NCBI GenBank assembly: GCA_030426545.1
Contig: JAUHYL010000047.1
Location: 1 to 32,016, forward strand
DNA: 32,016 nt
Source: Gammaproteobacteria bacterium
Lineage (GTDB): Bacteria; Pseudomonadota; Gammaproteobacteria; Pseudomonadales; Halieaceae
Direction of reading: 5' to 3'
Below are positions 664-31,311 of the stretch, in pieces; position 1 is the first letter of the stretch, and each line of letters starts with the position of its first letter. The notes under the pieces were generated by a model. That model saw only the letters and a program-made list of their open reading frames with translations. It was not told where the DNA came from and ran no database searches. Position numbers and translations under genes: made by a program.

Positions 664-1278
664 CTATTCAGCCGCAGGGACAGGAGGAAATTCGGCGAAG
701 ATGGCCTGCACAGCTGCACGGCGATTCTCCGCGGCCTTCTCCGGCTTGAGGTCGTCGCGAATGCGCGATTCGAATACCGAGCGCCATACCGACTGCAGCT
801 TCACCGGGTCTATCATGTCGACAATAAACGTTCCCTGCGTGTAATAACGCACCGACACATCGGACACACCGACGCCAACCCCCGTGCCGTAGCGCGGGCC
901 ACAACGCCAGCAATTGTAGGCGCTCACGCTGTTGTAGCTGCGCACGTCGGCGCGCTCCTGGGTCACCAGGTGCCAGGACAGCAGCATATCTGCCTGCGCG
1001 GAGTCATCGACCACCTGGAAACCCTTGCGCTGCAGTTCCTCCTTGATGGACTTGTTGATTCGCGAGATCTGAATATCGGAAACGACCACGCTGGCCGTGG
1101 CGGTACGATCAAAGGGCTGGATGGCAATCTTCTGCACGCCGGAAAAGTCGTAACTGTCATCGAAATCCGCAACGGCGGTGGGTGTGCTGCTACAGGCTGC
1201 AAGGCACATCAGCAACAATGCGGAAACGAGGACTTTGAACTGGGAGACCGGGTTAAACAGGCGGCGAGAGAGATTCAT
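664..1278 (-). CDS. DUF4136 domain-containing lipoprotein
   Basis: A 204-residue predicted outer-membrane lipoprotein. The start at 1278 gives a basic N-region (NLSRR), a hydrophobic stretch and a clear lipobox LAAC followed by SSTPT. An AGGAGT Shine-Dalgarno precedes this ATG; a longer open frame reaches 1389 but lacks signal-peptide features. The mature part opens with a DFDDSYDFSGVQKIAI-type segment and has the DTQ/TWHL-like strand pattern of DUF4136, including the SWHLVTQERADV region and a glycine-rich GTGVGVGVSDVSVRY repeat before the IVDMIDP strand. Members are abundant envelope lipoproteins of unknown function in Proteobacteria. The SDR gene follows closely on the same strand. Confidence 0.85.
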   Translation of the reverse strand: MNLSRRLFNPVSQFKVLVSALLLMCLAACSSTPTAVADFDDSYDFSGVQKIAIQPFDRTATASVVVSDIQISRINKSIKEELQRKGFQVVDDSAQADMLLSWHLVTQERADVRSYNSVSAYNCWRCGPRYGTGVGVGVSDVSVRYYTQGTFIVDMIDPVKLQSVWRSVFESRIRDDLKPEKAAENRRAAVQAIFAEFPPVPAAE

Positions 1279-1517
1279 GCAGTACTCCTGGGGAATTGGG
1301 GTTGGGTCTGGGTAGCCATCGACAAGCCTGCACACTCTAAACGACGACGACCCGGAACAGCAACCTAATTGCATCGCGGCGCACGCCATCCAAACTCGCT
1401 ATCGCGCAGTGGCAGACGGCCGGGGTGCTGCCGGCCTGAAACCGCATGCAGTCACCCTGTTCAGGCACTTCATGAACACCTCAAACTGCCGTCGCCCGCG
1501 ATCGTCTCAACAGCCCG

Positions 1518-1967
1518 CTAGACACGGGCAAAGCGTCGTTCGCGGCCGGTGCGGCGTTCGCCGATTTCAGTCTGCGTCAGCAAGTGATTCCGGGCACCGC
1601 CAAGCGCGCGACGGTCACCGTCCAAACGGCGCCGGTCCCGGTATTTGAGGTAGCGGCATGAACAACTGGCCGCGTCACAGGCGTCGAGTGGCAATGGCGG
1701 GATATTGTCATCCGCCACGAGATAGCGAACATTGGCAAGAGACTGTACCGGGCCACAGGCATCGCTACCCGGCTCAATTGACGTTGAACGGAAGGGATAG
1801 ACAACAGCGGGCGATTGCGCGGGTGGCGCCGCAGACAGCCCCGGACCGCGCGCAGGCTTGTAAGGCGTCACGACCGCGGACTTGTGGTATTGCGAAAGCG
1901 CAAAATGCACCACCGCCACCACCGCCAGCGCTACCAGAACGGACAAAATCAGAATCGAGGCACTCAT
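1518..1967 (-). CDS. Small membrane-anchored protein with C-terminal CxxxxCxC and DRR motifs, function unknown
   Basis: A 149-residue protein with one N-terminal transmembrane segment (about residues 4-26), a proline-rich linker, and a conserved-looking soluble tail. The tail has CGPVQSLANVRYLVADDN, then CDAASCSCRYLKYRDRR followed by a second DRR. The clustered cysteines (C-x4-C-x-C) followed by aromatic and arginine-rich motifs look like a small metal-binding or disulfide module. I recall similar unnamed proteins in gammaproteobacteria but no function. The start is supported by an AGGAG ribosome-binding site about 6 nt upstream. It is apparently monocistronic; a 6-bp GC-rich hairpin lies about 80 nt beyond the stop, without a T-tract. 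Confidence 0.75.
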   Translation of the reverse strand: MSASILILSVLVALAVVAVVHFALSQYHKSAVVTPYKPARGPGLSAAPPAQSPAVVYPFRSTSIEPGSDACGPVQSLANVRYLVADDNIPPLPLDACDAASCSCRYLKYRDRRRLDGDRRALGGARNHLLTQTEIGERRTGRERRFARV

Positions 1968-2099
1968 CAGCTACTCCTGAACCCGCAAGTCATGCGATGA
2001 AACGGCTTCGTTTCAACAACTTACAACTATAGAGCAGGATTGTAACAGCGCAAGCAAGGCTACCCAGTTGGGACAGCCTCACCCCGCCAGTAGTGCTGA

Positions 2100-2873
2100 T
2101 CAGGTCTCGACAAATGCCCGCTCAATCACGTAGTGCCCGGCTTCCCCGTGTCGCGCCTCGGCAAAACCGCGACTATCCAGCAGCGCGCTGATGTCCTTCA
2201 ACATGGTCGGACTGCCGCAGATCATGAAACGATCGACCTCGGGGTCAATGGGCGCCAGCCCGACATCCGCCGGCAGCCTGCCGATACGCAGCAGGTCAGT
2301 GAGGCGGCCGTTGTGACGGAACTTCTCCCGGGTCACAGTTGGGTAATAAATAAGCTTTTCCCGCACGGCTTCTCCCAGGTACTCATCTTGCGGCAACGCC
2401 TCGGTGATAAACGTCTGGTAGGCAAGTTCATCGATGTAGCGGCAGCCGTGCGTCAGGATCACACGCTCGTACTGCTCGTAAATATCAGGGTCGCGAATTA
2501 CGCTCAGAAAAGGCGCCAGCCCGGTACCTGTGGCGATGAGGTACAGGTTTTTGCCGGGCAGCAGATTGTCCTGAATCAGCGTGCCGGTGGCCTTGCTGTT
2601 GACCAGTACCTTGTCGCCTACACTCAGGTTCTGCAGCTTCGACGTTAACGGGCCATCCGGTACCTTGATACTGAAAAATTCCAGCTCGTCAGCGTAATTG
2701 GCGCTCGCCATGCTGTAGGCACGCAGCAACGGCCTGCCCTCGGTCTCCAACCCGATCATGGTGAAATGCCCGTTCTTGAATCGAAAACCGGGGTGTCGCG
2801 TGGTCTTGAAACTGAACAGACGGTCAGTCCAGTGATGAACTTCCGTCACCTCTTCGCGCAGTAATTCCGCCAT
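2100..2873 (-). CDS. fpr: Ferredoxin--NADP reductase
   Basis: A 257-residue flavoenzyme that moves electrons between NADPH and ferredoxin or flavodoxin in the cytoplasm, typically for oxidative-stress repair and Fe-S or sulfite metabolism. The RAYSMAS motif (about 51-57) binds FAD, and GTGLAPF (about 116-122) marks the NADP domain. CGSPTM lies near the C-terminus, and the C-terminal VIERAFVET resembles the bacterial class I Fpr tail. Length matches the 255-260 residue family. An AAGGAG ribosome-binding site precedes the ATG at 2873. It faces a LysR gene, an arrangement known from Pseudomonas fprA-finR, so regulation by that neighbour is likely. Confidence 0.95.
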   Translation of the reverse strand: MAELLREEVTEVHHWTDRLFSFKTTRHPGFRFKNGHFTMIGLETEGRPLLRAYSMASANYADELEFFSIKVPDGPLTSKLQNLSVGDKVLVNSKATGTLIQDNLLPGKNLYLIATGTGLAPFLSVIRDPDIYEQYERVILTHGCRYIDELAYQTFITEALPQDEYLGEAVREKLIYYPTVTREKFRHNGRLTDLLRIGRLPADVGLAPIDPEVDRFMICGSPTMLKDISALLDSRGFAEARHGEAGHYVIERAFVET

Positions 2874-3938: not shown

Positions 3939-5044
<1,106 letters not shown>

Positions 5045-5045
<1 letters not shown>

Positions 5046-5884
5046 TGTCTATGGAAAAGATCGGCGAAAACAAAAGCTTCGGCGGTCGCCAGCTGCGCTT
5101 CAGCCATCACTCTGAAGCGCTGCGCTGCGAGATGAACTTCTCGGTCTACCTGCCGCCCGCCGCAGAACAGGGCGAAGTACCCGTGTTGTACTGGCTGTCG
5201 GGCCTGACCTGCACCGACGAAAATTTTGTCCACAAGGCGGGCGCGCAGCGCTACGCGGCCGAGGCCGGTATCGCCATTGTGGCACCTGATACCAGCCCGC
5301 GCGGTGACGATGTTCCCGATGACGACGCCGGTGCCTACGATTTTGGTCTGGGTGCGGGCTTTTACGTCAACGCCACGCAATCCCCCTACTCCACCCACTA
5401 CCACATGTACGATTACGTGGTAGAGGAACTGCCGCAATTGGTAGCCGCTGGCCTCCCACTGGACAAAGGGCGCGCTGGCATCTTCGGGCACTCCATGGGC
5501 GGGCACGGTGCGCTGAGCATCGCGCTGAAAAACCCCGGGCGCTACCGCTGTGCATCGGCCTTCGCACCCATCAGTTCTCCGCTCAACTGTCCCTGGGGCG
5601 AAAAAGCGCTGAGCCTCTACCTGGGTGACAATCGCGACGCCTGGCAGGCGTACGACAGCGCGGCATTAATGCGCGCCGCAACCACACAATTGCCCATGCT
5701 GGTTGATCAGGGCGATGCAGACGATTTTCTGCAGGAACAACTGAAGCCGGAGTTACTGCAGGCGGCTGCTGACAGCTCGGACTATCCTCTCACGCTGCGC
5801 ATGCAGCAGGGCTACGATCACAGTTACTTTTTTATCGCCACCTTCATCGGCGAACACATCGCGTTTCACTGCGAGCACCTGTAG
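5045..5884 (+). CDS. fghA: S-formylglutathione hydrolase
   Basis: A 279-residue alpha/beta-hydrolase (esterase D family) that hydrolyses S-formylglutathione to formate and glutathione, the second step after FrmA. The nucleophile elbow is GHSMGGHG with S150; the acid is in DQGDADDF (about 224-227) and the base is H259 in GYDHSYFF. The oxyanion-side motif LSGLTCTDENF is present. The start is taken as the ATG of the TGATG junction with frmA, one base of overlap, giving translational coupling. A TTG three bases earlier and an ATG at 5051 are alternatives. Confidence 0.95.
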
Positions 5885-6391: not shown

Positions 6392-6670
6392 CTGCGCGTT
6401 CTCCCTGCCTGTCGATCCAGACCTGACTTTACCATCCGTTGCTTGCACTGAGCAGCGCAGATGCCCGCCCCGACGGCGCACCGGCGCACTCCCGGCCGGA
6501 CGGCGCGACCGGGTGCGCCGACTCGCGCGACTCCCATTCGGGCCATGCACCGCCTTTACAACCGGCCCGGCAGTACCTAGGCTCATAAGCTGAGCTGGAT
6601 GACACCAGCCAGCACATTGCCAGTGGTGCAACAGCTGCTTGCCCGCCCCCGAATACCCCCTAGAGGCCGT

Positions 6671-11092: not shown

Positions 11093-12511
11093 ATGAACAA
11101 GAAACCTGACGGCCGTACCCGGCTATCTGCACCCGCTTCGCCCCTGACCGGGACCACCTGGTCCGCGTCGCTATTTGCACTACTGTCCGCACTGACCCTG
11201 GTCGGCTGCTCTGATGGATCGGACCAGTTGGTGACAAGCGCATCACTGACGGCCGTGCCCACGGCGGCCCCGGAGGGCGCACCGGGAGAAGCGAAAATTC
11301 TGTCACTGCGGGTCACCCTCACAGAGCCGGTCAACCAGCCGGTGACCGTGCGGCCGAGTCGCATCGGCGGCACTGCAACGCCGGACGATGACTACCTGGC
11401 GAGTATCGGCGAAGCCGTCATCCCGCCCGGTGCGCTGGACGGCTACCTGACCATCGAACTGTTCGGAGACGCCACGGAAGAAAGTGCCGAAACCATCGAG
11501 TTGGCTATCGACGTATCGGGCCCGGTAAGCGTCACTTCAGACACTGTTACCGCCACCATCGCCAATGACGACAGCCAGTGCGACACCCCCTTCACCAAGG
11601 ACCCGAACCCCTGGCTGGTAAACGGCGCAGATCCGCTGAATTTCGCCCATCGGGGCGGTGTGACGGACTTCCCGGAAAACACGCTCTACGCCTACGCCGA
11701 AGCAGCGAAAGCCGGGGCCGATGTGCTGGAGATGGATGTTTACCAGACCAAAGACAATGAACTGGTCATCCTGCATGACCTGACGGTGGATCGCACCACC
11801 AATGGCAGCGGCGGCGTGGTCGACCTGACGCTGGCAGAACTGCGTGCGCTGGATGCAGCCTACTGGTTCGTCCAGGGTCAGGGCACACCACACGATTTAC
11901 CCGAGACGTCCTACCTGTTTCGCGGCATCGCGACGGGGCTGAAGCCCCCACCACCCGGCTACAGCGCAGAGGATTTCCGCATTCCCACGCTGGAAGAGGC
12001 CCTTGCGCGATTCCCACACAACCTGATCAATATTGAGCTCAAGCCCGACCTGGACGGCAGTGGCAACTACGAAGTGCAGATGGCAGAACTCCTGCAACGC
12101 TACGGGCGCTCCACGGACATGATCGCCGCGTCCTTCGTCGACGAAGCGGCGGTCAATTTCAAAGCAGCGGCGCCGTGCATTTACACGTCGGTACCGCTGG
12201 GCCAGGGCACGGATCTAATCCTCGGCTTCCTTGGCACGGGTGAGTTTCCGCCCGTACCGGAGCACATCACCTGGCAGGCACCGCCGGACACCAGCCAGAT
12301 TGGGCAGGTGGACATAGAACTCGAGATTGTCACCGAGGCATTCGTCGAAGCCAGCCATGCAGCCAACCTGGCGGTACAGGTGTGGACAATCAATACCTGC
12401 GAAGAAATGCTGCGCATGATTGATCTCGGCGTGGATGCCATCATGACGGACGCGCCGCTGTTGCTCGAAGAAGTGCTGGCCACGCCGCCCGCAGAGCGCA
12501 GTTGCGACTGA
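11093..12511 (+). CDS. Glycerophosphodiester phosphodiesterase lipoprotein with N-terminal Calx-beta-like domain
   Basis: A 472-residue lipoprotein. The lipobox LVGC gives lipidated C39, followed by SDGSD. Residues about 55-160 form a Calx-beta-like beta sandwich (GTATPDDDYLAS, VTATIANDDS). The GDPD TIM barrel follows: HRGG (H186, R187), PENT (195-197), EMD (E213, D215) and LHD (H228, D229) supply the general acid/base pair and calcium ligands; IELKP lies later. It should cleave glycerophosphodiesters to glycerol-3-phosphate and an alcohol at the cell envelope. The barrel has an insertion with FRGIATGLKPPPPGY near 275-290. It stands close to a MAPEG gene and a hydrolase lipoprotein whose mature N-terminus is also CSDGSD. 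Confidence 0.92.
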   Translation: MNKKPDGRTRLSAPASPLTGTTWSASLFALLSALTLVGCSDGSDQLVTSASLTAVPTAAPEGAPGEAKILSLRVTLTEPVNQPVTVRPSRIGGTATPDDDYLASIGEAVIPPGALDGYLTIELFGDATEESAETIELAIDVSGPVSVTSDTVTATIANDDSQCDTPFTKDPNPWLVNGADPLNFAHRGGVTDFPENTLYAYAEAAKAGADVLEMDVYQTKDNELVILHDLTVDRTTNGSGGVVDLTLAELRALDAAYWFVQGQGTPHDLPETSYLFRGIATGLKPPPPGYSAEDFRIPTLEEALARFPHNLINIELKPDLDGSGNYEVQMAELLQRYGRSTDMIAASFVDEAAVNFKAAAPCIYTSVPLGQGTDLILGFLGTGEFPPVPEHITWQAPPDTSQIGQVDIELEIVTEAFVEASHAANLAVQVWTINTCEEMLRMIDLGVDAIMTDAPLLLEEVLATPPAERSCD

Positions 12512-12588
12512 CGAGGGCACGGCCGTCGCTGCGGCCGGCCCCACCAACATCACTGCACCACCCCCGCAAACCCTAATGGAGAACAACC

Positions 12589-12975
12589 ATGACAACCGTG
12601 ATCGCCGCCCTCCTCATTCTCTGCATACTGCCGATAAGCTGCGCGTGGATCGCCGGCTATCACCGGCACAGGCAGTTTGGCAAGGTCGACAACAAGGAGC
12701 CACGCATCCAGTCGCAACAGCTCACCGGCGCCGGAGCGCGTGCGGTCGCGGCGCAGGCAAACAGCTGGGAAGCGCTGGCGGTTTTCAGCGCCGCCGTACT
12801 GGCTCTGTTCATCAGTGGCGTTGATCTGGCAAGCGTGAGTACGCTGGCGCTGGTTTTTACGGCATTGCGGATAGTGTATATCCCGCTGTACCTGGCAAAT
12901 ATCGATGCGTTGCGCTCGCTGGTCTTTCTTGGCGGATACGGCATCTGCCTGTACATGTTCTATCTCGCGCTGTAG
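12589..12975 (+). CDS. MAPEG family membrane protein
   Basis: A 128-residue integral membrane protein with four predicted hydrophobic segments (about 3-22, 58-77, 79-98 and 108-126). The loop after helix 1 (GYHRHRQFGKVDNKEPR) and RAVAAQANSWEALAVFSAAVLA in helix 2, with its Asn/Glu pair, match the MAPEG superfamily. Related proteins are microsomal glutathione transferases and leukotriene synthases; most bacterial members have no assigned substrate. The ATG at 12589 lies about 10 nt after an AATGGAGAA ribosome-binding site, 77 nt after the GDPD gene, so co-transcription is possible. Confidence 0.88.
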   Translation: MTTVIAALLILCILPISCAWIAGYHRHRQFGKVDNKEPRIQSQQLTGAGARAVAAQANSWEALAVFSAAVLALFISGVDLASVSTLALVFTALRIVYIPLYLANIDALRSLVFLGGYGICLYMFYLAL

Positions 12976-16341: not shown

Positions 16342-17166
16342 ATGGCAATACCGGCATCACTGCGCGACAAGCTGTTCGACGTAACCATGGCCACGGTCGA
16401 CGGCGTTATGGCAGCCTGGCCGCAGCCACTGCCCTCGAGAGAAGCACTGGAGCGCTGCCGCATCATCGCCCACCGCGGCGAACACGACAACCAGAAGGTC
16501 TTCGAAAACACGCTGCAGTCTTTTCAGCTGGCGCTCGATGCGGGCGTCTGGGGCATAGAGTGCGACATACGCTTTACCCGGGACCGGGTACCCGTTATCT
16601 GCCATGATCCGACGGCGTCGCGGGTTTTCGGCGCCGCCATCGAGATTGGCCGGACGACCTTCACAGACCTGCGGGCCGCCCTGCCGCAGATTCCCACGCT
16701 GGACGAGCTCGTAGAGCAGTTCGGTGGCCGCGCGCACCTGATGCTGGAATTGAAGCATGAAGCGTGGCCAGCGCCAGAACACCAACGCGATCGGCTGCGC
16801 GAAGCGCTGGCACCGCTGCAACCGATACATGACTTCCACCTGCTGAGCCTGAACCCCACAATGTATGAGCGTGTGGACTTCGCCCCCGAAGGCTGCTTCC
16901 TGCCCGTGGCGGAAACCAATGTCGAGGCTATCAGCCGCTTTGCCCTGGAGCGGGGCTGCGCCGGCCTCGGCGGACACTACCTGCTGCTGGGTAAGGCCGT
17001 TAAACAACGCCACGATCGCGTGGGACAGCAACTGGGTACAGGATTCCCCACCTCCGGCAATTGCCTGCGCCGCGAACTCAATCGCGGTGTGCAATGGATA
17101 TTCACCAATCACGCGGTGAAGCTGGAAACGCTGCGCAGAGACTATCTGGCAGCGCATGACCGGTAA
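16342..17166 (+). CDS. Glycerophosphodiester phosphodiesterase, cytoplasmic type
   Basis: A 274-residue GDPD without a signal peptide. The motifs are AHRGE (H44, R45), FENT (55-57), IECDIRF (E73, D75), CHDP (H88, D89) and LELKHE, giving the metal-dependent hydrolysis of glycerophosphodiesters to glycerol-3-phosphate and alcohol. A long N-terminal helix (about 1-38) precedes the barrel. WIFTNHAV near the end replaces the usual TD-P motif of many family members. The start has a CAGGA-type ribosome-binding site about 10 nt upstream. A short hairpin follows the stop. Confidence 0.9.
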   Translation: MAIPASLRDKLFDVTMATVDGVMAAWPQPLPSREALERCRIIAHRGEHDNQKVFENTLQSFQLALDAGVWGIECDIRFTRDRVPVICHDPTASRVFGAAIEIGRTTFTDLRAALPQIPTLDELVEQFGGRAHLMLELKHEAWPAPEHQRDRLREALAPLQPIHDFHLLSLNPTMYERVDFAPEGCFLPVAETNVEAISRFALERGCAGLGGHYLLLGKAVKQRHDRVGQQLGTGFPTSGNCLRRELNRGVQWIFTNHAVKLETLRRDYLAAHDR

Positions 17167-17287: not shown

Positions 17288-18502
17288 ATGCAAGCCTTCG
17301 ATTACAGCGCCCTGCCCTTTGCGGTTCGCGAGGATCTGGCGCAGGCCTACCGCGAGTACTGGCGCAAGCTGGCCGCTGCCGGCAGTTGGTGGTCCGGGGA
17401 GCAGCGCGTGGCGATCGCACAGGAAGTGCGCAACGCGCTGCGCTGCAGTTACTGTGCAGAACGCAAGCAGGCACTGTCGCCCTACCATTTCCCCGGTGAG
17501 CATGAGCACAGCCATAACCTGCCAGCCATCGCCGTCGATGCCGTCCACCGTATCGTGACCGACCAGGGCCGCATTACGCGCGACTGGGTGCAGCACATTC
17601 AGACGCAGGGCCTGAGTGAACCCCACTACGTTGAACTGGCCGCGGTGGTTGTCACGGTATTCAGTATCGACGAGTTCAATCGAGGCCTGGGCCTGCCGCC
17701 CGAGGCGCTTCCGACACCGCTCCCGGGCGAACCTGATCACTATCTGCCAGGTAACACCGACAGCACAACGGGGTTTGTCGCCATGCTGCCGGCGCAGGGC
17801 AAACTGAACGCCAGAGAAAGCGGGCTGTGGTCCCCGGGACGGAGCGCCAACGTGTTGCGCGCCCTTAGCCTGGTGCCAGACGGCGTGCGTGACTGGCAGT
17901 CTGTTGCAAATGCGCAGTACCTGCCAGCGGAGAAACTGGTTCGCTTCACCGCCGCAACCGGGCGCAGTATTAATCGCCCGCAGATGGAGCTCATCGCAGG
18001 GCGGGTATCGTCCTACAACGAATGCTTCTACTGAACTAACTCACACGCCACCATGCTCAGTTTGAGCGTGGACTCTTCCGATACCGATCTCGACTTGCAG
18101 GTGATAAACGGCGCGGGTGGCGGCGGAATACCCCTGGGCGAAGAACTGCGACTGTTCGCTGAAACGCTCGCATCACGCGACGAAAAGGCGCTGGGCGACG
18201 CGCGAGAAACCCTGTTGCGCGTCGCTGGCGCAGCGGTACTTGTCGATGCAACAGCCGTTGCCGCCAACTTTCAGCGCATGGTGCGCATTGCCGACTCAAC
18301 CGGTATCCCGGTAGACGGCCTGATGGATGCGCTCAGCGGTTCAATACCGGATGAACTGGAGCTGCGCCGCTTTCACTCCGCCGGTAACACGCCACCGCGG
18401 GGTCGCTTTCACGCGCTCAAATCGTGGCTGGTGCGCAACATCGCGTTACGCATGCTGCTACGCGGCGGGCGAGACGCCAGTCGCAACCCGGACAACCACT
18501 AA
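17288..18502 (+). CDS. AhpD-like alkylhydroperoxidase-related selenoprotein, Sec encoded by in-frame TGA (18032-18034)
   Basis: Read through one TGA, this is a single 404-residue protein of the AhpD/carboxymuconolactone-decarboxylase fold with two tandem domains. Domain 1 has CSYC (C53, C56). Domain 2 has IAGRVSSYNECFY, then TGA at codon 249, then TNSHATM: C246-x-x-U249-x-x-x-H253. That is exactly the AhpD redox motif CxxCxxxH with selenocysteine in place of the second Cys. The frame continues unbroken for 155 codons, and the tail (VDATAVAANFQRMVRIADSTGIP) is typical of this family. A SECIS-like hairpin follows the TGA. A conventional caller would report two ORFs, 17288-18034 and one from ATG 18053, which has no ribosome-binding site. 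Role: thiol/selenol peroxidase or related redox enzyme, inferred. AhpD-like selenoproteins are a known class. The alternative is a nonsense mutation. Confidence 0.88.
18048..18071 (+). promoter_or_regulatory. Candidate bacterial SECIS element for Sec insertion
   Basis: Lower stem CCAC (18048-18051) with GUGG (18068-18071), a three-base bulge CAU on the 5' side, upper stem GCUCA (18055-18059) with UGAGC (18063-18067), and apical loop GUU (18060-18062). The loop starts with G followed by U, the bases SelB contacts in the E. coli fdhF element. The loop G is 25 nt after the UGA, inside the roughly 16-37 nt window known for bacterial SECIS elements. The element lies within the coding frame, as bacterial ones do. 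Confidence 0.8.
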
Positions 18503-18507
18503 ATCGG

Positions 18508-19854
18508 TCATACAACCCCGTAGGCCAGCATCGCGTCGGCAACTTTGATAAAGCCGGCAATATTGGCGCCCTTCACATAGTCGATGTAGTCATCATCCTC
18601 GGCGCCGTGCTGTGCACACTGGGCGTGAATACCGACCATGATGTTGTGCAGGCGGCGTTCCAGTTCCTCCGCGGTCCACGCCATCCGGATGCTGTTCTGC
18701 GTCATCTCCAGGCCAGAGACGGCCACGCCACCCGCATTCGCCGCCTTGCCCGGACCGTACAGCATGCGGTTTTTCTGCAGTACATCGATACCCTCCAGCG
18801 TGGTGGGCATGTTCGCGCCCTCCGACACCCCGATACAGCCATTGGACGCCAGCACTTTCGCGTCATCGCCGTCGAGTTCGTTCTGTGTTGCGCAGGGAAA
18901 AGCGAGATCGCAGGGCACATCCCAGGGCCGCTTACCGGCGAAGTAATCACAACCAAACTTTTCCGCGTACTCGGAAATGCGGCCGCGCCGCTTCACTTTC
19001 AGGTCCTTCACCCAGTCCAGTTTTTCCGTATCCATGCCATCCGGATCGTGTATATAGCCCGACGAATCCGACAGCGTTACCACCTTGCCACCCAACTGCA
19101 GGATCTTCTCCGCGCAGTAAATCGCCACGTTCCCGGAACCTGAAATCACGCAGGTTTTACCAATCATCGAATCGCCACGCTGTTTCAGCATCTCCTCCAT
19201 GAAGTACGCATTGCCGTAGCCCGTGGCTTCGGTACGGATAAGGCTGCCCCCAAACTCCAGGGCCTTGCCCGTCAGTACACCCGAAAACTCGTTGGTCAGG
19301 CGCTTGTACTGCCCGAACAGGTAGCTGATCTCTCGAGCACCCACCCCGATATCGCCGGCGGGTACATCCACATTCGGACCGATATGGCGATACAGGGCCG
19401 TCATGAACGACTGGCAGAAACGCATGACCTCACGATCTGACTTCCCTTTGGGGTTGAAATCTGCCCCGCCCTTGGCAGCACCCATGGGCAAGGTGGTGAG
19501 GCTGTTCTTGAACGTCTGCTCGAACCCGAGAAACTTCAGAATGCTGAGATTGACCGAGGGGTGAAAGCGCAAACCCCCCTTATACGGGCCGATCGCATTG
19601 TTAAACTGTACGCGATATCCCCGGTTAACCCGGATATTGCCGTTGTCGTCTTCCCAGACCACGCGGAACATCAACGTGCGGTTGGGCTCGGTCATGCGCT
19701 GGATAATGGCGGCGTCCTGGTACCGCGGGTTATCCAGGATAAACGGAATGACCGATTGCGCCACCTCGTGCACAGCCTGGTGAAACTCGGGTTCATTGGG
19801 GTTGCGCTTGCGCAGGCCAGACATGAAGCGTTCGACCGAGAGATCTTCATACAT
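18508..19854 (-). CDS. gdhA: NADP-specific glutamate dehydrogenase
   Basis: A 448-residue cytoplasmic enzyme for reductive amination of 2-oxoglutarate to glutamate, the low-affinity ammonium assimilation route. YKGGLRFHPSVN (K92), K116 and PMGAAKGGADFNPKG (catalytic K128) form the active site; PAGDIGVGAREISYLFGQYKR follows. The nucleotide domain has SGSGNVAIYCAEKILQLGG, and NAGGVAVSGLEM closes the core. Length matches the hexameric GdhA family. An AAGGAAAA ribosome-binding site lies upstream of the ATG at 19854. It converges on the selenoprotein gene with only five bases between them and has a long structured leader. Confidence 0.97.
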   Translation of the reverse strand: MYEDLSVERFMSGLRKRNPNEPEFHQAVHEVAQSVIPFILDNPRYQDAAIIQRMTEPNRTLMFRVVWEDDNGNIRVNRGYRVQFNNAIGPYKGGLRFHPSVNLSILKFLGFEQTFKNSLTTLPMGAAKGGADFNPKGKSDREVMRFCQSFMTALYRHIGPNVDVPAGDIGVGAREISYLFGQYKRLTNEFSGVLTGKALEFGGSLIRTEATGYGNAYFMEEMLKQRGDSMIGKTCVISGSGNVAIYCAEKILQLGGKVVTLSDSSGYIHDPDGMDTEKLDWVKDLKVKRRGRISEYAEKFGCDYFAGKRPWDVPCDLAFPCATQNELDGDDAKVLASNGCIGVSEGANMPTTLEGIDVLQKNRMLYGPGKAANAGGVAVSGLEMTQNSIRMAWTAEELERRLHNIMVGIHAQCAQHGAEDDDYIDYVKGANIAGFIKVADAMLAYGVV

Positions 19855-19992
19855 ACCTTGTTTTCCTTATAGGTAAAAAATCGCCAGCAACAGAGTGCCC
19901 GCACGTTGCGCTGCTGCCCTGGGTAGCGTACAGGTTATGAGCATACCGAATTTTCTGGTGCCGAACCCGCTTTGAAGGATATAGCATCTGGA

Positions 19993-20042
19993 TGGTGCCT
20001 GGGCGCTCCGGGGACACAAGGTGGGCGCTGGCCCTGGCACCA
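19993..20042 (-). other. Long imperfect inverted repeat in the putative gdhA leader
   Basis: TGGTGCC-T-GGGC (19993-20004) is the reverse complement of GCCC-T-GGCACCA (20031-20042) apart from one central mismatch, giving a stem of 7 plus 4 bp around a 26-nt loop. The loop repeats GGGCGCT. If gdhA starts at the TATAAT at 20065-20060, this structure forms at the very 5' end of its transcript. The regulatory role is inference. Confidence 0.4.
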
Positions 20043-20045
20043 GAC

Positions 20046-20073
20046 TTGACATAATGTTAATTATAACTATCTT
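20046..20073 (+). promoter_or_regulatory. Putative sigma-70 promoter of the cytochrome c / lactone oxidase operon
   Basis: Consensus -35 TTGACA at 20046-20051, spacer 16 nt, -10 TATCTT at 20068-20073 (four of six). It lies about 140 nt before the cytochrome c start. The overlapping minus-strand TATAAT (plus 20060-20065) is a consensus -10 for gdhA, though its -35 is poor. The two promoters would occlude one another. Confidence 0.45.
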
Positions 20074-20215
20074 TATGATTTAACAGCCTGATCAGTGCCC
20101 CTGCGGAGTGGCATTGGCCCACTTGAAGAATTGATAAAACCGCGTGAATGCCCCACGCTAATCCCTGGCAGTTGAGCAGTCACCACCCTGCCCCTGTTAC
20201 CGAGGAGAAAACCGA

Positions 20216-20581
20216 ATGATGCGCGCTCCCTACCGCCATTTCCTGTTAGTACTCGTCCTGTGCACCTTGGCAGCATGCAACGACGACGGAGCTTCTGGCC
20301 AGGCTTCCGCGGAGATAAGCAGCCGCAACCTCGCTCCGGCAGACGAGCAACTGGCTGCAATTTACAACCGCAGTTGTCGCAGTTGCCACACCGTTGCCGC
20401 TACCGGCTCACCGTTGACTGGCGACACCGCCGCCTGGGAAGCGCGTATGGAAAAAGGCATGAGTACGCTGGTAGACAATGTGGTGAATGGCTTCGGCGGT
20501 ATGCCACCGTTCGGTCTGTGTATGGATTGCGACGCAGAGCAATTCGAAGCGCTGATTCACTTTATGGCCACGGGCGGCTAA
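20216..20581 (+). CDS. Cytochrome c5-type lipoprotein
   Basis: A 121-residue monohaem c-type cytochrome with a lipoprotein signal (LCTLAAC, lipidated C21). The haem site is CRSCH (C54, C57, H58); the axial Met is probably M96 in GGMPPFG. CMDC (102-105) is the extra disulfide pair typical of cytochrome c5. It should be anchored in the envelope facing the periplasm. A GAGGAG ribosome-binding site precedes the start; ATG 20219 is equally possible. The lactone oxidase gene starts 4 nt after the stop, so this cytochrome is likely its electron acceptor. Confidence 0.92.
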   Translation: MMRAPYRHFLLVLVLCTLAACNDDGASGQASAEISSRNLAPADEQLAAIYNRSCRSCHTVAATGSPLTGDTAAWEARMEKGMSTLVDNVVNGFGGMPPFGLCMDCDAEQFEALIHFMATGG

Positions 20582-20585
20582 TCCC

Positions 20586-21959
20586 ATGCTGAATCGCCGC
20601 AACCTGCTGTCCGCCATGATTACCGCCACGGTCGCCGCAAGTGCAACGGGCGGGTGGCCAGTGCTGGCCAATGCCGCCCCCACCAGAAAGCGCCTGCCCT
20701 GGCGCAACTGGTCGGGTTCACAACAGTGTCTGCCCGAGGCACGCAAAGCGCCGGCCACTGTCGCGGAACTGCAGGAACTGGTTGCCGCCAGTACCGGCAC
20801 GGTTCGGCCTGTCGGTGCCGGGCACTCCTTCACGCCTCTGGTTCCGACTGACGGTACCATCGTTTCGCTGGCACGCCTCAGCGGCATCGTCGATCACGAC
20901 AGCGAGAAGCTACAGGCCACTGTGTGGTCCGGCAGCCGGCTCGGGGATCTCGGTAAACCCCTGGATGATATAGGGCAGGCGTTAATTAACATGCCCGATA
21001 TCGACGAACAGGCGCTGGGCGGCTGCCTGGCGACGGCTACCCACGGCACCGGGGCCAGCCTGGGTTGCATGTCGACTTTCGTGCGCGGCCTGCAGCTGGT
21101 CGACGGCCGCGGAGAACTACACGAGTGTGACGCCAACAACAATCCCGACTTGTTTAACGCGGCACTGGTGTCCATGGGCGCGTTGGGCATCATCACGCAG
21201 GTGCGGCTACAAAACATCGCCCCGTACCGGCTGCGCAGGGAAACTCACTGGCGCACTTTCGAAGAGATCGTGGAAACCGCCGAGGCGCTGGCAGACAAAC
21301 ACCGCAATTTCGAGTTTTTCTACATTCCCTTCTCCGGCATGGGCTTTACCGATAGCCAGGATTTCACCGACGAACCGCTGGGCTCGACGGAAAAACTCGA
21401 TGGCAATGAAGGCGTAGAGGATTTGCGCCTGGCACGCGACCTGATGAGCAAGATGCCCAGAGTGCGTGAGCTGGTGCTGGGCAGTTATATGCGCACGCTG
21501 GACAGCGAAGTCACCGTGGAAAAGTCCTGGCGGAACTATGCCAGCGAGCGCAATGTACGCTTCAATGAAATGGAGTATCACCTGCCGCGGGAATACGGAC
21601 TCAAGGCGCTGCAGGAGATTCGCGAGGTCCTGGAGTCGAATCACCAGGAGGTGTTCTTCCCCATCGAGTTTCGCTACATACACAGCGATGACATCTGGTT
21701 GAGCCCGTTTTACGGCAGGGAAACCTGCTCGATCGCGGTGCATCGCTATTTTGAAGAAGACTACCAGCCGTTTTTCAAGACCATTGAACCCATCTTTCGC
21801 AAATACCACGGGCGCCCCCACTGGGGCAAACTGAACACACTCACCCGTAAAGAACTCAGCAAACTGTATCCCCACTGGGACGACTTTGCTGAGGTGCGGC
21901 GCAGTTACGATCCGCAGGGGCGTTTCCTGAATGACTATCTCCGATCTCTGTTCACATGA
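20586..21959 (+). CDS. Tat-exported FAD-dependent aldono-1,4-lactone oxidase/dehydrogenase
   Basis: A 457-residue flavoprotein of the vanillyl-alcohol oxidase fold. The N-terminus is a Tat signal (NRRNLLSAMITATVAA). The FAD domain has VRPVGAGHSFTP, where H80 is the position of the covalent flavin His in many relatives, and ATHGTGASLG. The C-terminal cap is the D-arabinono-lactone oxidase domain with HWGKLNTL, the signature of L-gulono/L-galactono/D-arabinono-lactone oxidoreductases. The reaction is expected to be oxidation of an aldonolactone or a polyol at C2. Being exported and next to a cytochrome c, it probably passes electrons to the respiratory chain rather than to oxygen. The true substrate is unknown. 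Confidence 0.9.
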   Translation: MLNRRNLLSAMITATVAASATGGWPVLANAAPTRKRLPWRNWSGSQQCLPEARKAPATVAELQELVAASTGTVRPVGAGHSFTPLVPTDGTIVSLARLSGIVDHDSEKLQATVWSGSRLGDLGKPLDDIGQALINMPDIDEQALGGCLATATHGTGASLGCMSTFVRGLQLVDGRGELHECDANNNPDLFNAALVSMGALGIITQVRLQNIAPYRLRRETHWRTFEEIVETAEALADKHRNFEFFYIPFSGMGFTDSQDFTDEPLGSTEKLDGNEGVEDLRLARDLMSKMPRVRELVLGSYMRTLDSEVTVEKSWRNYASERNVRFNEMEYHLPREYGLKALQEIREVLESNHQEVFFPIEFRYIHSDDIWLSPFYGRETCSIAVHRYFEEDYQPFFKTIEPIFRKYHGRPHWGKLNTLTRKELSKLYPHWDDFAEVRRSYDPQGRFLNDYLRSLFT

Positions 21960-25756: not shown

Positions 25757-28117
25757 CTATTGTGCTGAAAACTTCAGGACCGGCCCCTCGAGATCCGATG
25801 TGCGGGACGCCACCGGATGCAGTTCGCCGCGTACCCAGGCCGTGAACTGATCGGCATAGTGGGCACTGAGCGGATGTCCGGATTGCCCGCCAGGGATAAC
25901 CGAGAGTACCCTCGGGGGCTTTTCCATAACAGCCACGGCTCTGACGGTCGCACCGTGATTAACGTTATTGGGACGTGCGTAGCTATAGTTGGCCCTACCC
26001 ACGGTCGAAGCGCCACCTCCCAATGGGAGTTTGGGCGAATTAAACAATAAGCCAAACAACGGCACGGCCTTACCCAACTCGTGCTTGAGCTGCACCTGAT
26101 GCATGTCATCCAGTCGCCATTGCGCCACATCGCTACCAAGGTCGGGGGCAAGCTGGGCCACGGTGTCGTTGAGTGCTTCACTGACCAATAGTTCCCTGCC
26201 CGGCTGCCACCATGGCGAAGTCCCTGGTCCGAGAATTAACGTGTCCAGGGCCTGATTGAGCACGTAATTGCGTCGCAGCAGTTGCGGCCACAAGTCACCC
26301 AGCGAGACAGCAAATACCCGCTCGGCGATTGCGAGATACCAGCGTTGAAAAATCAACGCGGCGGCGCTGTCCGGAGACGCCACCGGGCTGGACCGCCACT
26401 CAATCAATAATCCTAGCGCAGTGACCGCGCCCGGATCGAGCAACGCCCGGCGAGTCTGTGACAAGAGTGCTGGCAACAACTGTCGCGCCTGCCCATCTAG
26501 CCAGTCAGTCTGCAACGCCTGCATGTCGGCTGCTGAAAGCGAATCAGCCCCAGCCAGCACCTGTTGAATACGCGCTATCCGGTAGGGTGCGGCATTGTCT
26601 GCAGAGACCAGGGGCTGCCCTGCCGCGCGGCTCACGCGCGCGTTGGCAGCAGCCAGATAGCCCGCAGCCGGGTTCTCCCACTGCGGCATCTCTGCAGCAG
26701 GTACCATGCCCTGCCAGCGCTGTGCAGGGTCGGCTCCATTCAGCGGCCAGCGGCCCTCCCCTGCGCCGCGCCGTGGCAAAACGCCGCCGGTGCGCAAACC
26801 GATGGTGCCGTGTACATCCGCATAAGTCGCATTGAGCGTCGGAGCGTGGAAGGCATCCAGTGCCTGCGTAAACTCCAACCAGTTACGCGCTCGATTGAAA
26901 TCCAGCAGGCTGTCGAGACTGGGACGCTCAAGTCGCTGCACCGCCCACGCCAGGCTGATCGGTGGTTCGTCGTTAATCAGTGGGCCGTTGAGGGTATGCA
27001 CGATTTCCAGCGTTTCGATTGAGCCACCGGCAACGGGAATCTCAACGCTTTCCCGACGCGCTCGATACCAGCGCTGCCCATCCAGGAAAAGCATGCGATC
27101 ATCGACAGAGCGCTCCTCTACAAATAAATCCTGCGTATCGCCGATGTTGGTAAAGCCCCACGCTATATCCTGGTTGTAACCATTAATGACACCTGGAAGT
27201 CCCGGCACTGACCAACCGCGCAACTGCTCCCCATCGCCATAAAACAGATTAACCTCGTAAAACAAATTGGGCAGACCCAGTTCATCGTGGGAATCGAATG
27301 CGTACAGTGGCACACCAGCGGCAGTGCGCTCGGGTGCTATCACCCAGCCATTGCTGCCAAAGCCCAGCGGGGGCATCAGCGGGTTGCGCGCCGGGTCGAG
27401 GCTGGCCAGGCGCTGCAGTGCGCCCTGCAGCGGTGCCGCGGCAGAGGAAGACAACGCTACAAAAGGGTAATCAGGATGCTCGCTACCATCGGTTTTGAAC
27501 ACCGCCAAGCGGGGTTCATCCAGCCTGCTGCCAAGCGCCAGGCGCAGCAACTCGTTTTCCATATTGTTCGCTGACTGGTAAGCCATCAACGCGCCCAGAG
27601 CGAAAACATCGCGACGCTCCCAGTGTGGCCGATCCGCACGCAGCAGCAGCATTTCGGGCGGTAACAGAGGGTATCTGGCAATAGCGGCGTTGACACCGAT
27701 AAGGTAAGCATCGACCAGTGCCAGGGTGGCCGCACTGGCATTTTCCTCAAGGCGCGTTGCAAGTTGGGGTACGCCAACAGTCCAGAGCTGCCTGTCCGTG
27801 TTTAGCAGATCACGCCCCAGTAGCTCGGCCATGCGCCCCTGACCAGCGCGACGCAACAGCTCCATTTGCCAAAGTCGGTGACTGGCGTGCAGCCAACCTT
27901 GCAGCAACAGCGCATCTGGCAGGGTAGCGGCTTCGACATAGGGCCTCTCCCACGCATCGAATCGCACCTCTGCGCTGGCGTCCAGGCCGGCCAGCCTAAT
28001 AGCACCGCTGGTCGGTGCCAGTGAACTGGCCAGCACCCACCAAACGAGCAGGCCGGCTACTGCCAGTAAAAGCAAAGGAGCAAAGCACCACTTCCTGACC
28101 AGACGGGCTGTCACCAT
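25757..28117 (-). CDS. Penicillin acylase family protein (Ntn hydrolase)
   Basis: A 786-residue precursor of an N-terminal-nucleophile amidase. An N-terminal hydrophobic anchor (about 12-32) sends it to the periplasm. The alpha chain includes GRMAELLGRDLL and DAYLIGVNAAI. Autocleavage is expected before S255 in GFGSNGWVIAPE, the SNxW start of the beta chain. Later motifs include GLPGVINGYNQDIAWGFTN and QTDWLDGQA. Members hydrolyse amide bonds of beta-lactams, acyl-homoserine lactones or other N-acyl compounds; the substrate here is unknown. The ATG overlaps the 3' end of the dehydratase gene by seven bases, so translation is coupled. Confidence 0.93.
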   Translation of the reverse strand: MVTARLVRKWCFAPLLLLAVAGLLVWWVLASSLAPTSGAIRLAGLDASAEVRFDAWERPYVEAATLPDALLLQGWLHASHRLWQMELLRRAGQGRMAELLGRDLLNTDRQLWTVGVPQLATRLEENASAATLALVDAYLIGVNAAIARYPLLPPEMLLLRADRPHWERRDVFALGALMAYQSANNMENELLRLALGSRLDEPRLAVFKTDGSEHPDYPFVALSSSAAAPLQGALQRLASLDPARNPLMPPLGFGSNGWVIAPERTAAGVPLYAFDSHDELGLPNLFYEVNLFYGDGEQLRGWSVPGLPGVINGYNQDIAWGFTNIGDTQDLFVEERSVDDRMLFLDGQRWYRARRESVEIPVAGGSIETLEIVHTLNGPLINDEPPISLAWAVQRLERPSLDSLLDFNRARNWLEFTQALDAFHAPTLNATYADVHGTIGLRTGGVLPRRGAGEGRWPLNGADPAQRWQGMVPAAEMPQWENPAAGYLAAANARVSRAAGQPLVSADNAAPYRIARIQQVLAGADSLSAADMQALQTDWLDGQARQLLPALLSQTRRALLDPGAVTALGLLIEWRSSPVASPDSAAALIFQRWYLAIAERVFAVSLGDLWPQLLRRNYVLNQALDTLILGPGTSPWWQPGRELLVSEALNDTVAQLAPDLGSDVAQWRLDDMHQVQLKHELGKAVPLFGLLFNSPKLPLGGGASTVGRANYSYARPNNVNHGATVRAVAVMEKPPRVLSVIPGGQSGHPLSAHYADQFTAWVRGELHPVASRTSDLEGPVLKFSAQ

Positions 28118-29082: not shown

Positions 29083-29787
29083 CTAGGCCCGCTTCAAACC
29101 CAGCATCCAGCCGAGGTGGCGACGCAACAAGCGCATCAAGTCGTTACGATCCAGCTCATCGGCCGGCATGGCCAGCGCCTGATACTCCAGTGTCGTAATC
29201 GTGTTGAGCAGCAGTCGTGCGTCAATCTCCGGGTCGTCCCGATTAAAGCGGCTGCAGAGCGCTATCAGTGGCTCCAACAATTGCTCGCGGTGCTCGATAC
29301 CCATACGTCTCAACTCGGGGGATAAACGCGCATGGGTAAAGAAAATCTGTTCCACGGCAAGACCGACGGGCTTGTCCAGAATCTGGGCGGTCAGGTAATC
29401 CGCCGCACGCTCTGCGAGTTGCTCGCAAATAGTATTGCGAACGTCGGACCGCCGCAGCTCGGTGGCCGTGAAGCCGTCCAGGTAAGTGAATATTTCCTGC
29501 CACAGACGCTCGACCTCGGGGCGCGACTGAAGGGAAAAAAGCGCAAATGCTTCCCGTATCATGGTGTCGATGTCTTGAAAATAGTAGGTAGTCAGTGACA
29601 ATTGCACGCCCGCCTCCGCAGCGACGGACCTGTGCGTCACGCCGCGCGTTCCTTCACGCGCTATCAAGTTGAGTACAGCCCGCAAAATTTTCAGACGCGT
29701 CTGCTCCCCCTTGGCACTCAAACCTCTGGAGGCCTTTAGATTCGCCGCACGGGCGGCTTGGTGTGCTTTTCTGCTTGTTGTAGTCAC
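29083..29787 (-). CDS. TetR family transcriptional regulator
   Basis: A 234-residue regulator. The N-terminal helix-turn-helix is in TRLKILRAVLNLIAREG and GVTHRSVAAEAGVQLSLTTYYFQD (about 30-75); the rest is an all-helical ligand and dimerisation domain. Start GTG 29787 is the only plausible one; an AAGG lies 13 nt upstream. The first 25 residues are basic and Ala-rich. It is the first gene of the operon with the dehydratase and acylase, and divergent from the class III aminotransferase. A perfect palindrome in the intergenic region is its likely operator. Confidence 0.9.
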   Translation of the reverse strand: MTTTSRKAHQAARAANLKASRGLSAKGEQTRLKILRAVLNLIAREGTRGVTHRSVAAEAGVQLSLTTYYFQDIDTMIREAFALFSLQSRPEVERLWQEIFTYLDGFTATELRRSDVRNTICEQLAERAADYLTAQILDKPVGLAVEQIFFTHARLSPELRRMGIEHREQLLEPLIALCSRFNRDDPEIDARLLLNTITTLEYQALAMPADELDRNDLMRLLRRHLGWMLGLKRA

Positions 29788-29847
29788 GCTATGGTCGTTA
29801 CCTTGTTAGTTGCGCTAAAGTCGAACCGGTCATGGTGCTACCGCGAC

Positions 29848-29877
29848 TTGGAAACAAAGAGCATCATTTTGTACAAT
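29848..29877 (+). promoter_or_regulatory. Putative promoter of the aminotransferase gene
   Basis: TTGGAA (29848-29853), an 18-nt spacer, and TACAAT (29872-29877) make a reasonable sigma-70 promoter reading towards the aminotransferase, leaving a leader of about 105 nt. The -10 lies inside the palindromic operator, so a bound repressor would block it. A second TACAAT at 29880-29885 is an alternative -10. Confidence 0.45.
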
Positions 29878-29884
29878 CGTACAA
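29869..29884. promoter_or_regulatory. Palindromic operator TTGTAC-N4-GTACAA, candidate TetR-regulator site
   Basis: TTGTAC (29869-29874) and GTACAA (29879-29884) are perfect inverted repeats around AATC. The 16-bp dyad is typical in size for TetR-family operators. It lies 82 bases from the tetR start, between the divergent tetR and aminotransferase genes, over the putative -10. The link to this regulator is inference from position. Confidence 0.6.
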
Positions 29885-29991
29885 TAATCTGCCAGAGGCA
29901 TACAGCGCCCCACCCGGGCATTGTAGCGCGAGGATTGTTGAGAGAGGCAATCTGGCAGCGTCTAGAACCATTACCCGCTACGGAGCGCCCC

Positions 29992-31311
29992 ATGAGCCAC
30001 ATGATTTATCCCAACACCAATCTCGCGGCCACCGAGGAGATGGTGATCGAGCGTGGCGACGGCATCTACGTTTATGACCAGAAAGGCAAGCAATACCTGG
30101 AAGGTCTGGCGGGGTTATGGTGCACCGGCCTCGGTTACGGCAACCGGGAACTGATCGACTGCATCAGTGCCCAGATGTCGAAACTCTCGTATACACACAT
30201 GTTTGGTGGCAAAACCCATCAACCCGGTATGGATCTCGCAGACAAACTATCAAGTCTCGTACCGATGAAGGATGCTCGCGTGTTTTTCGGCAATTCAGGT
30301 TCAGACGCCAACGACACCCATATCAAGCTACTCCGCTACTTCTTCAACGTCACAGGAAGGCCGGAAAAGCGGAAAATCATCACCAGGGAGAAGGCTTATC
30401 ATGGGGTGACGGTGGCTTCCGGCTCCCTGACCAGCCTCCCGGGCAACCTGGCACACTTCTCTGCCCCGTTAGAGGCACTGGGTGTGTTGCGCACTGACGC
30501 TCCGCACTATTACCGCGGCGCACTGGAAGGCGAAAACGAGGAGGCCTTCGTGGCGCGCCTGGCTGGCAACCTGGAGGAACTGATCGTCAATGAAGGTCCG
30601 GAGTCTATCGCGGCCTTCGTGGCCGAACCCGTCACGGGTGCCAGCGGGGTCATTGTACCGCCCCCGGGCTATTATGAAGCTGTGCAGGCAATCCTGAAGA
30701 AGTACGACATCTTGTTCTGGGCGGACGAAGTGATCACCGGTTTTGGCCGCACTGGCAAACTGTTTGGTTGCGAAACCGTTAACATTCAACAGCCCGACCA
30801 AATGACCCTGGCCAAGCAGCTCTCTTCCGCCTACTACCCCATTAGCGCTGCACTGATACGCGGCGACATTTACGACGCGATGGTGGCACCCAGCAATGAG
30901 GTTGGAATTTTCGGTCACGGTTACACTTACTCAGGCCACCCAGTAGGGTGTGCCGCCGCACTAAAAACGCTGGAAATATACGAGCGGGAAAATCTGTACC
31001 AACACGCTGGCGAAGTAGGTCAGTACATGCAGACGCGTCTGGCAAAACTCGCAGATCACGAGCGAGTTGGAGAGGTACGCGGCGTCGGTCTGATTGCAGC
31101 TGTGGAGCTGGTCACAGACAAGCGCAGTCACGCGGCCGACAGTGCGTTCGCTGCTGCTGCTACGCGTGCGTGCCTTGAAAACGGTCTGATTGTGCGCAAC
31201 GTAGGTGGCAACTCCCTCGCCATGTGTCCGCCCCTGATTATCACGCGTGAACAGATTGACGAAATGGTAGACAAACTCACGCAATCTATCGATGCGGTGT
31301 GCGCACACTGA
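29992..31311 (+). CDS. Class III PLP-dependent aminotransferase (omega-amino acid / diamine type)
   Basis: A 439-residue aminotransferase of the omega-transaminase group. Visible: LAGLWCTGLGYG, FFGNSGSDANDTHIKLLR (PLP phosphate), YHGVTVASGSLT, EPVTGASGVIVPP, DEVITGFGRTG (Asp to PLP nitrogen), and K275 in LAKQLSSAYYPISA as the Schiff-base lysine; GYTYSGHPVGCAAAL follows. Such enzymes transfer an amino group from an omega-amino acid or amine to pyruvate or 2-oxoglutarate. ATG 29992 is chosen for its GGAG seven bases upstream; a longer frame to 29758 runs into the tetR coding region. Divergence from tetR suggests substrate-induced control together with the dehydratase-acylase operon. Confidence 0.93.
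   Translation: MSHMIYPNTNLAATEEMVIERGDGIYVYDQKGKQYLEGLAGLWCTGLGYGNRELIDCISAQMSKLSYTHMFGGKTHQPGMDLADKLSSLVPMKDARVFFGNSGSDANDTHIKLLRYFFNVTGRPEKRKIITREKAYHGVTVASGSLTSLPGNLAHFSAPLEALGVLRTDAPHYYRGALEGENEEAFVARLAGNLEELIVNEGPESIAAFVAEPVTGASGVIVPPPGYYEAVQAILKKYDILFWADEVITGFGRTGKLFGCETVNIQQPDQMTLAKQLSSAYYPISAALIRGDIYDAMVAPSNEVGIFGHGYTYSGHPVGCAAALKTLEIYERENLYQHAGEVGQYMQTRLAKLADHERVGEVRGVGLIAAVELVTDKRSHAADSAFAAAATRACLENGLIVRNVGGNSLAMCPPLIITREQIDEMVDKLTQSIDAVCAH

Follow-up and report, generated by a model that had tools for sequence, protein, structure and literature searches.

Organization of the locus

In the window, that is, the whole stretch of 32,016 nucleotides analysed here, the coding sequence at 17288-18502 (+) is one gene of 404 codons with a single internal in-frame TGA at codon 249 (18032-18034), after which 155 more codons precede the normal stop; the window copy contains no other internal stop. 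The preliminary description of this DNA had placed the ORFs 17288-18034 and 18053-18502 in one frame, with the TGA and six sense codons between them, and these coordinates are exact. The read-through product has 404 residues and includes the stretch NECFY-U-TNSHATM, in which the TGA occupies the claimed position of the AhpD motif and H253 is kept, exactly as described. The gene and its recoded codon are:

17288-18502, + strand: predicted selenoprotein coding sequence, with selenocysteine (Sec) at codon 249 and the stop at 18500-18502 (assigned from the match to NF041238 and a 57-sequence alignment)
18032-18034, + strand: TGA predicted to be read as Sec, U249 (assigned from TGA at the homologous codon of all aligned loci, the window copy included)

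The joined protein matched the NCBIfam model NF041238 (AhpD_rel_CFYUT) at 440.1 bits against a cut-off of 175, the match spanning protein residues 13-363 and model positions 1-356 of 357. The full name of this model is "alkylhydroperoxidase-related (seleno)protein, CFYUT", and the model name spells the motif found in the window protein, where CFYUT with UGA at the U position is present as NECFY-TGA-TNSH at codon 249. The stretch after Sec is about 30 residues longer in the window copy than in most relatives; this C-terminal extension, which is helical in the predicted model of the window protein, is present in 14/91 loci, the window's own among them.

Upstream of the gene lies a GDPD-family gene (16342-17166), and downstream a convergent NADP-glutamate dehydrogenase gene (18508-19854). 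No conserved operon was found around the gene: the most frequent neighbour family occurred in 13/80 loci, was adjacent in six and was absent from the window. These figures come from a second pass of neighbour clustering, in which 149 gene-overlapping ORFs were left out and 712/1715 were kept as non-overlapping; since the ORFs were called mechanically, the neighbour analysis is crude. The two largest clusters of raw ORFs (37/80 and 21/80 loci) were minus-strand, located for the most part at the gene, and were taken as antisense frames. Neither the neighbours in the window nor the neighbourhoods of the relatives, as predicted from sequence, give a clue to a pathway. Elsewhere in the window, 3939-5884 encodes a class III alcohol dehydrogenase and an S-formylglutathione hydrolase, a pair for glutathione-dependent formaldehyde detoxification; a second GDPD-family phosphodiesterase gene lies at 11093-12511; and 25757-28117 (-) encodes a penicillin amidase-family protein (565.7 bits to PF01804).

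Conservation of the in-frame TGA

The alignment of relatives comprised 92 entries: 79 loci from a scan of 84,980 species genomes (drawn from the best 80 of its 102 relatives), 12 from a search of the window's order, and the window itself. As the window's own gene is one of the 12, the 92 entries represent 91 loci, some of which are duplicated between the collections; over positions -12 to +60 relative to the TGA there are 84 distinct sequences. Codon 249 is TGA in all 92 aligned entries, that is, in 91/91 loci, with no Cys form, even though Cys codons were written at the Sec site in one of the six search patterns, which would have favoured Cys forms. The preliminary description had left it to the homologues to decide between Cys and Sec at this codon, and those aligned here are unanimous. 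Cys homologs were counted for this family in a metagenomic study (PMC1088965), and Cys relatives that are distant or partial may therefore exist.

A second stop was present in nine aligned entries, and in 8/9 it was the protein's own C-terminus. The exception, L075, has a real second in-frame TGA (6439-6441 of that locus), which precedes the Sec codon within the domain 1 part and may reflect either an assembly error or damage; apart from it, no frame damage was seen in the relatives. Between the window gene and 56 relatives, codon-position differences at positions 1/2/3 were 0.37/0.30/0.64 upstream of the TGA and 0.39/0.33/0.68 downstream. In these sequence comparisons, the coding constraint is protein-like and nearly equal on either side of the TGA.

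A pseudogene, or a sequencing error at the TGA that leaves the ORFs as remnants, would explain why the standard code yields two short ORFs here, and the extra in-frame TGA of L075 would fit this explanation. Against it, the same TGA recurs in every aligned locus, from many assemblies, the coding constraint is equal on both sides, the window copy has no other stop and the genome has the Sec machinery (see below). We rejected the pseudogene and sequencing-error readings on the conservation of the TGA and the coding constraint, and consider them wholly implausible.

It could also be argued that the TGA is a true stop, so that one protein ends at residue 248 and a separate one begins at ATG 18053, six codons after the TGA. 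Such a downstream product would begin after the catalytic residues C246 and H253, and the six intervening codons are themselves conserved, with T250 and H253 invariant in 57/57 aligned proteins and A254 kept in at least 90%. Moreover, inspection by eye found no obvious Shine-Dalgarno motif before ATG 18053, in agreement with the earlier remark that the downstream ORF has no ribosome-binding site of its own. A true stop is thus highly improbable, and a single read-through frame is the better account of the locus.

The family has a patchy distribution, since searches across the phylum (1/398, E<=1e-30) and across the class (1/369, E<=1e-20) each recovered the window's own genome alone. No family match was found in plasmid records. 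Two genomes of the window's order have two family copies each (G279 on contigs C12 and C30; G076 on contigs C60 and C42), every copy with one TGA.

A candidate SECIS hairpin follows the TGA

The coding sequence just downstream of the TGA can fold into a hairpin:

18051-18071, + strand: predicted SECIS hairpin with a 9-bp stem, a GUU loop and the core stem at 18055-18067 (assigned from fold, position, codon bias and compensation)

The window hairpin has a folding energy of -13.4 kcal/mol and its loop lies 25 nt from the UGA. A published bacterial SECIS model (PMC13188914, section 5) specifies a stem of 4-16 bp, a loop of 3-9 nt with G in its first two positions, a distance of 16-37 nt from the UGA and a minimum free energy (MFE) <= -7.5, and the window hairpin agrees with it in geometry and energy. 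The same geometry was found in 82/84 distinct sequences, with the loop 24-25 nt after the TGA, compared to only 0-12/84 at 18 control positions in the same genes; the exceptions are L099, whose first two loop positions lack a G, and L022, which has a 3-bp stem.

The core stem is fixed in place, with offsets +23 to +26 from the T of TGA paired with +32 to +35. The inner three pairs form in 84/84 distinct sequences each and the fourth in 83/84. Two of the core pairs never vary and are therefore uninformative on covariation, the fourth varies on one side (G-C in 67, G-U in 16), and covariation is confined to one base pair, the innermost, which is C-G in 80 sequences, U-A in three and U-G in one, without a mismatch. 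This pair involves a Leu codon, which is CTC in 80/84 sequences and CTT in four, compared to a CTC share of 18% among the Leu codons in the rest of these genes; in 3/4 CTT carriers the partner base is changed to A (Fisher p 4e-5). Protein identity among the three U-A carriers (L016, L056 and L068) is only 43-55%, which makes more than one origin of the double change probable. The other stem codons are biased as well: Ser is encoded by AGY in 84/84 sequences (44% elsewhere in these genes) and Arg, where present, by CGT in 66/72 (16% elsewhere).

Folding energies were less uniform. An energy <= -7.5 kcal/mol was reached by 67/84 sequences, and when 48 nt were folded freely, the MFE structure contained the core hairpin in only 33/84. 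Behind the TGA, no signal was seen in a 51-nt sliding energy scan against synonymous shuffles, and a 30-nt scan from -300 to +300 gave its strongest mean z at +18 (-0.75; outside the region, mean -0.08, s.d. 0.14). Rfam reported nothing at gathering scores on the window. The case for a SECIS element is therefore one of position, codon choice and covariation, as judged from sequence, and not of energy.

Sec machinery and co-occurrence with selA

The preliminary description had made its reading depend on selA, selB, selC and selD being encoded in the genome. All four were found over cut-off in the window's genome (4.35 Mb in 141 contigs, 97.85% complete). On contig 131, selA (29465-30802), selB (30838-32730) and the tRNA-Sec gene (32821-32911) lie in a row. 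The selD gene is on contig 1 (18131-19039), within a 778-residue open frame of which it makes up the C-terminus; the N-terminal portion of this frame looks, by eye, like an NADH-dehydrogenase-like flavoprotein. The arrangement resembles the Ndh-SelD fusions named in PMC2398784.

Among 293 genomes of the window's order, NF041238 was over cut-off in 12. All 12 of these had selA over cut-off, versus 27/281 genomes without the gene (Fisher p 5.9e-12, without correction for relatedness). In these 12 genomes, the 14 copies over cut-off have exactly one TGA each and no other stop in the match; two of them lie outside the 91 aligned loci. The sole other genome of the same genus in the order sample (G201) has no selA and only a weak, partial family match below cut-off.

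In some relatives, the gene is also physically linked to the machinery. A selA-selB pair lies within 6 kb of the gene in 4/79 scan loci (L055, L056, L057 and L064), a count to be read with many loci having less than 6 kb of flank, and also in one genome of the order search (G011, loci L024/L127); the pair adjoins the gene in all five except L057. The proteins of the five linked copies share 38-75% identity, and a single event may therefore underlie the linkage in at least L055 and L064.

The window's genome probably decodes Sec in further genes, since two others of the AhpC-TSA/peroxiredoxin-like type (2/17 matches) have a single in-frame TGA within a W-U-PYC motif and are probable UxxC selenoproteins:

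Contig 66, 19600-20800: peroxiredoxin-like gene L131, motif W-TGA-PYC, with the TGA at locus position 488
Contig 123, 1200-2500, minus strand: peroxiredoxin-like gene L132, motif W-TGA-PYC

In the same genome, no match to SelW-like (Rdx) proteins was found, and no stop was seen inside the six CMD matches over cut-off or inside the formate-dehydrogenase-like matches, all of which were below cut-off. About 1.3 kb downstream of the tRNA-Sec gene on contig 131, a further peroxiredoxin-like protein (positions 12193-12717 of locus L125) has an MLCPGC motif with both Cys. Motifs of this type occur as UxxC in known selenoproteins.

We infer that Sec is inserted in the window's organism. UGA 249 would be decoded by SelB and Sec-tRNA with the help of the intragenic SECIS hairpin, about 25 nt separating the codon from the downstream loop. 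The view of the gene as encoding an AhpD-like selenoprotein, first put forward in the preliminary description, thus gains support from the family match, the machinery, the invariant TGA and the SECIS candidate. We conclude from the sequence that 17288-18502 very probably encodes a selenoprotein of the AhpD-related CFYUT family with Sec at residue 249.

Domain architecture of the predicted protein

The AlphaFold2 model of the full protein had a mean pLDDT of 93.2, and residues 1-160 modelled alone had a pLDDT of 91.8. In this predicted model the protein consists of two halves, with the following elements:

17288-17722, + strand: domain 1, residues about 1-145, six-helix (AlphaFold2, Foldseek)
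17444-17455, + strand: C53-S-Y-C56 motif, with K60 at the position of the domain 2 His (both Cys invariant in 57/57)
17849-18307, + strand: domain 2, residues about 188-340, AhpD-like with CxxU (6k40 profile match, Foldseek)
17987-17989, + strand: E234, relay glutamate (invariant in 57/57; spacing as for Glu36/Glu118 of AhpD-like proteins)
18023-18031, + strand: C246-F-Y248 of the CFYU motif (C246 and Y248 invariant in 57/57)
18044-18046, + strand: H253, relay histidine (invariant in 57/57)

Domain 2 is AhpD-like by both sequence and predicted fold. It matched the PDB profile 6k40 with E=3.4e-11 (profile positions 159-342), and Foldseek aligned the whole model to 6k40 with probability 1.00 and TM 0.72 by target length (E 0.07), the full-model hits also including unrelated chains with probability near zero. 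The Pfam CMD model (PF02627) scored 16.9 bits on the window protein, under the gathering score of 23, and matched all 57 aligned members at E<=0.1 (best 1.6e-7). This alignment contains 57 of the 92 entries, hand-chosen for spread, with Sec shown as C. Its 28 invariant positions include C53, C56, H87, E116, E234, C246, Y248, Sec249, T250 and H253, so that a five-residue proton relay, E234-C246-Y248-U249-H253, is complete in domain 2 with each residue invariant in 57/57. According to PMC3141380, the corresponding relays are E36, C48, Y50, C51 and H55 in PA0269 and E118, C130, H132, C133 and H137 in Mycobacterium tuberculosis AhpD, and the spacing in domain 2 equals that of both. Sec249 would therefore correspond to the second cysteine of these relays, C133 in M. 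tuberculosis AhpD.

The two halves of the model each have six main helices in matching order (domain 1/domain 2: 15-29/197-210, 37-50/230-243, 54-61/247-262, 80-91/284-296, 98-106/299-313 and 111-133/315-338), with CxxC and CxxU both at the start of the third helix. With domain 1 alone as the Foldseek query, the top 16 chains were all AhpD-like or peroxidase-related (probability 0.97-1.00, TM by query length 0.47-0.55, best E 0.009). Neither the full model nor domain 1 gave a Foldseek E-value <0.001, and the profiles of the two domains did not align in hhalign (probability 1.2% local, 0.1% global), so domain 1 is called only a probable, very divergent AhpD-like domain. The earlier proposal of two AhpD domains thus holds for domain 2, whereas for domain 1 it finds no echo in sequence and is suggested by the predicted fold only. 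A tandem duplication of one AhpD domain, which was also considered, is unsupported by the profile-profile comparison. At the relay positions, domain 1 has the hydrophobic V41 in place of Glu (V, I, M or A in 57/57) and K60 in place of His; the latter substitution, already noticed in the preliminary description, is kept in 55/57 aligned proteins.

Possible chemistry of the Sec site

In the mechanism that we propose, the selenol of Sec249, most likely the attacking group, would reduce a peroxide or another oxidised substrate, and C246 would then resolve Sec249 as a selenenylsulfide. C53 and C56 of domain 1 would deliver electrons to the Sec site or receive them from a thiol donor outside the protein; a role of domain 1 as an internal electron relay is a guess that draws on its invariant Cys residues and missing relay residues. 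The protein would then be a selenol peroxidase or a redox relay, and is probably an antioxidant enzyme. We give peroxide reduction about an even chance of being its chemistry.

Another possibility, which we regard as the less probable one, is that the family is a selenoprotein with different chemistry on the AhpD scaffold, such as reductive dehalogenation or disulfide isomerisation. The debrominase Bmp8 (6ohi/6ohj), whose CxxC on a CMD fold presumably carries out reductive debromination, is indeed among the structural matches, but it ranked under peroxidase-related proteins. Moreover, domain 2 has the complete AhpD proton relay including the Tyr, as in the weakly peroxidatic PA0269 (PMC3141380).

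We further speculate, with some doubt, that the protein is an obligate selenoenzyme, in which an AhpD-descended CxxC domain recycles a CxxU site that performs chemistry beyond the reach of Cys. If this were true, Cys forms would not survive, and the gene would be kept by no genome lacking the Sec machinery, in some cases next to selAB. With no Cys form among the relatives aligned here, the family would lend itself well to studying which functions of Sec are closed to Cys.

Comparison with known selenoprotein families

The gene looks broken and, as confirmed from the raw sequence, has every appearance of an intact selenoprotein gene. With high confidence, we regard it as a real member of a family already published and curated, not as a new system. 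The 2005 Sargasso Sea selenoproteome (PMC1088965) calls this family 'hypothetical protein 1', gives it a CxxU motif and names a predicted SECIS for it in a figure legend; a table there counts seven Cys homologs in the dataset and five in genomes. A table in a 2026 review (PMC13188914) equates NF041238 (AhpD-related protein, CxxU) with this Sargasso protein, and the family is also in the list of a 2022 review (PMC9312934). The preliminary description had expected that standard annotation would miss the gene, but a curated model exists and the family is in reviews, so current annotation need not miss it.

We consider three observations to be new here: the covariation in the SECIS hairpin, the absence of a Cys form in 91 loci and a co-occurrence with selA that is strict within one order. 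Our literature search was light on subscription journals, and within the text open to it we found no print report of SECIS covariation, of an absence of Cys forms or of a strict selA link in the NF041238 family; the same search found no paper on a recombinant AhpD selenoprotein. Two testable points are thereby added for the family, namely a fixed, compensating SECIS in the coding sequence and the lack of a Cys form among relatives.

Compared to structurally known proteins, domain 2 is similar to 6k40 (Deinococcus radiodurans), 3c1l, 2oyo and PA0269 (2o4d) in fold and in the E-x11-C-x-Y-C/U-x3-H relay. These chains have 165-197 residues, about one domain, whereas the window protein has an extra N-terminal domain; in addition, PA0269 has Cys at the second Cys position, where the window protein has Sec. 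Two other families listed in a table of PMC13188914, TIGR01926 ('AhpD-like' CxxU) and NF041047 ('distant AhpD homolog'), share with it a CxxU on an AhpD-type scaffold. They are different families: the window protein scores 35.5 bits against TIGR01926, below the cut-off of 81.8, and NF041047 is absent from its matches at E<=1. The window protein agrees with the NF041238 family in having both CxxU and a SECIS-like downstream hairpin, with no difference in kind.
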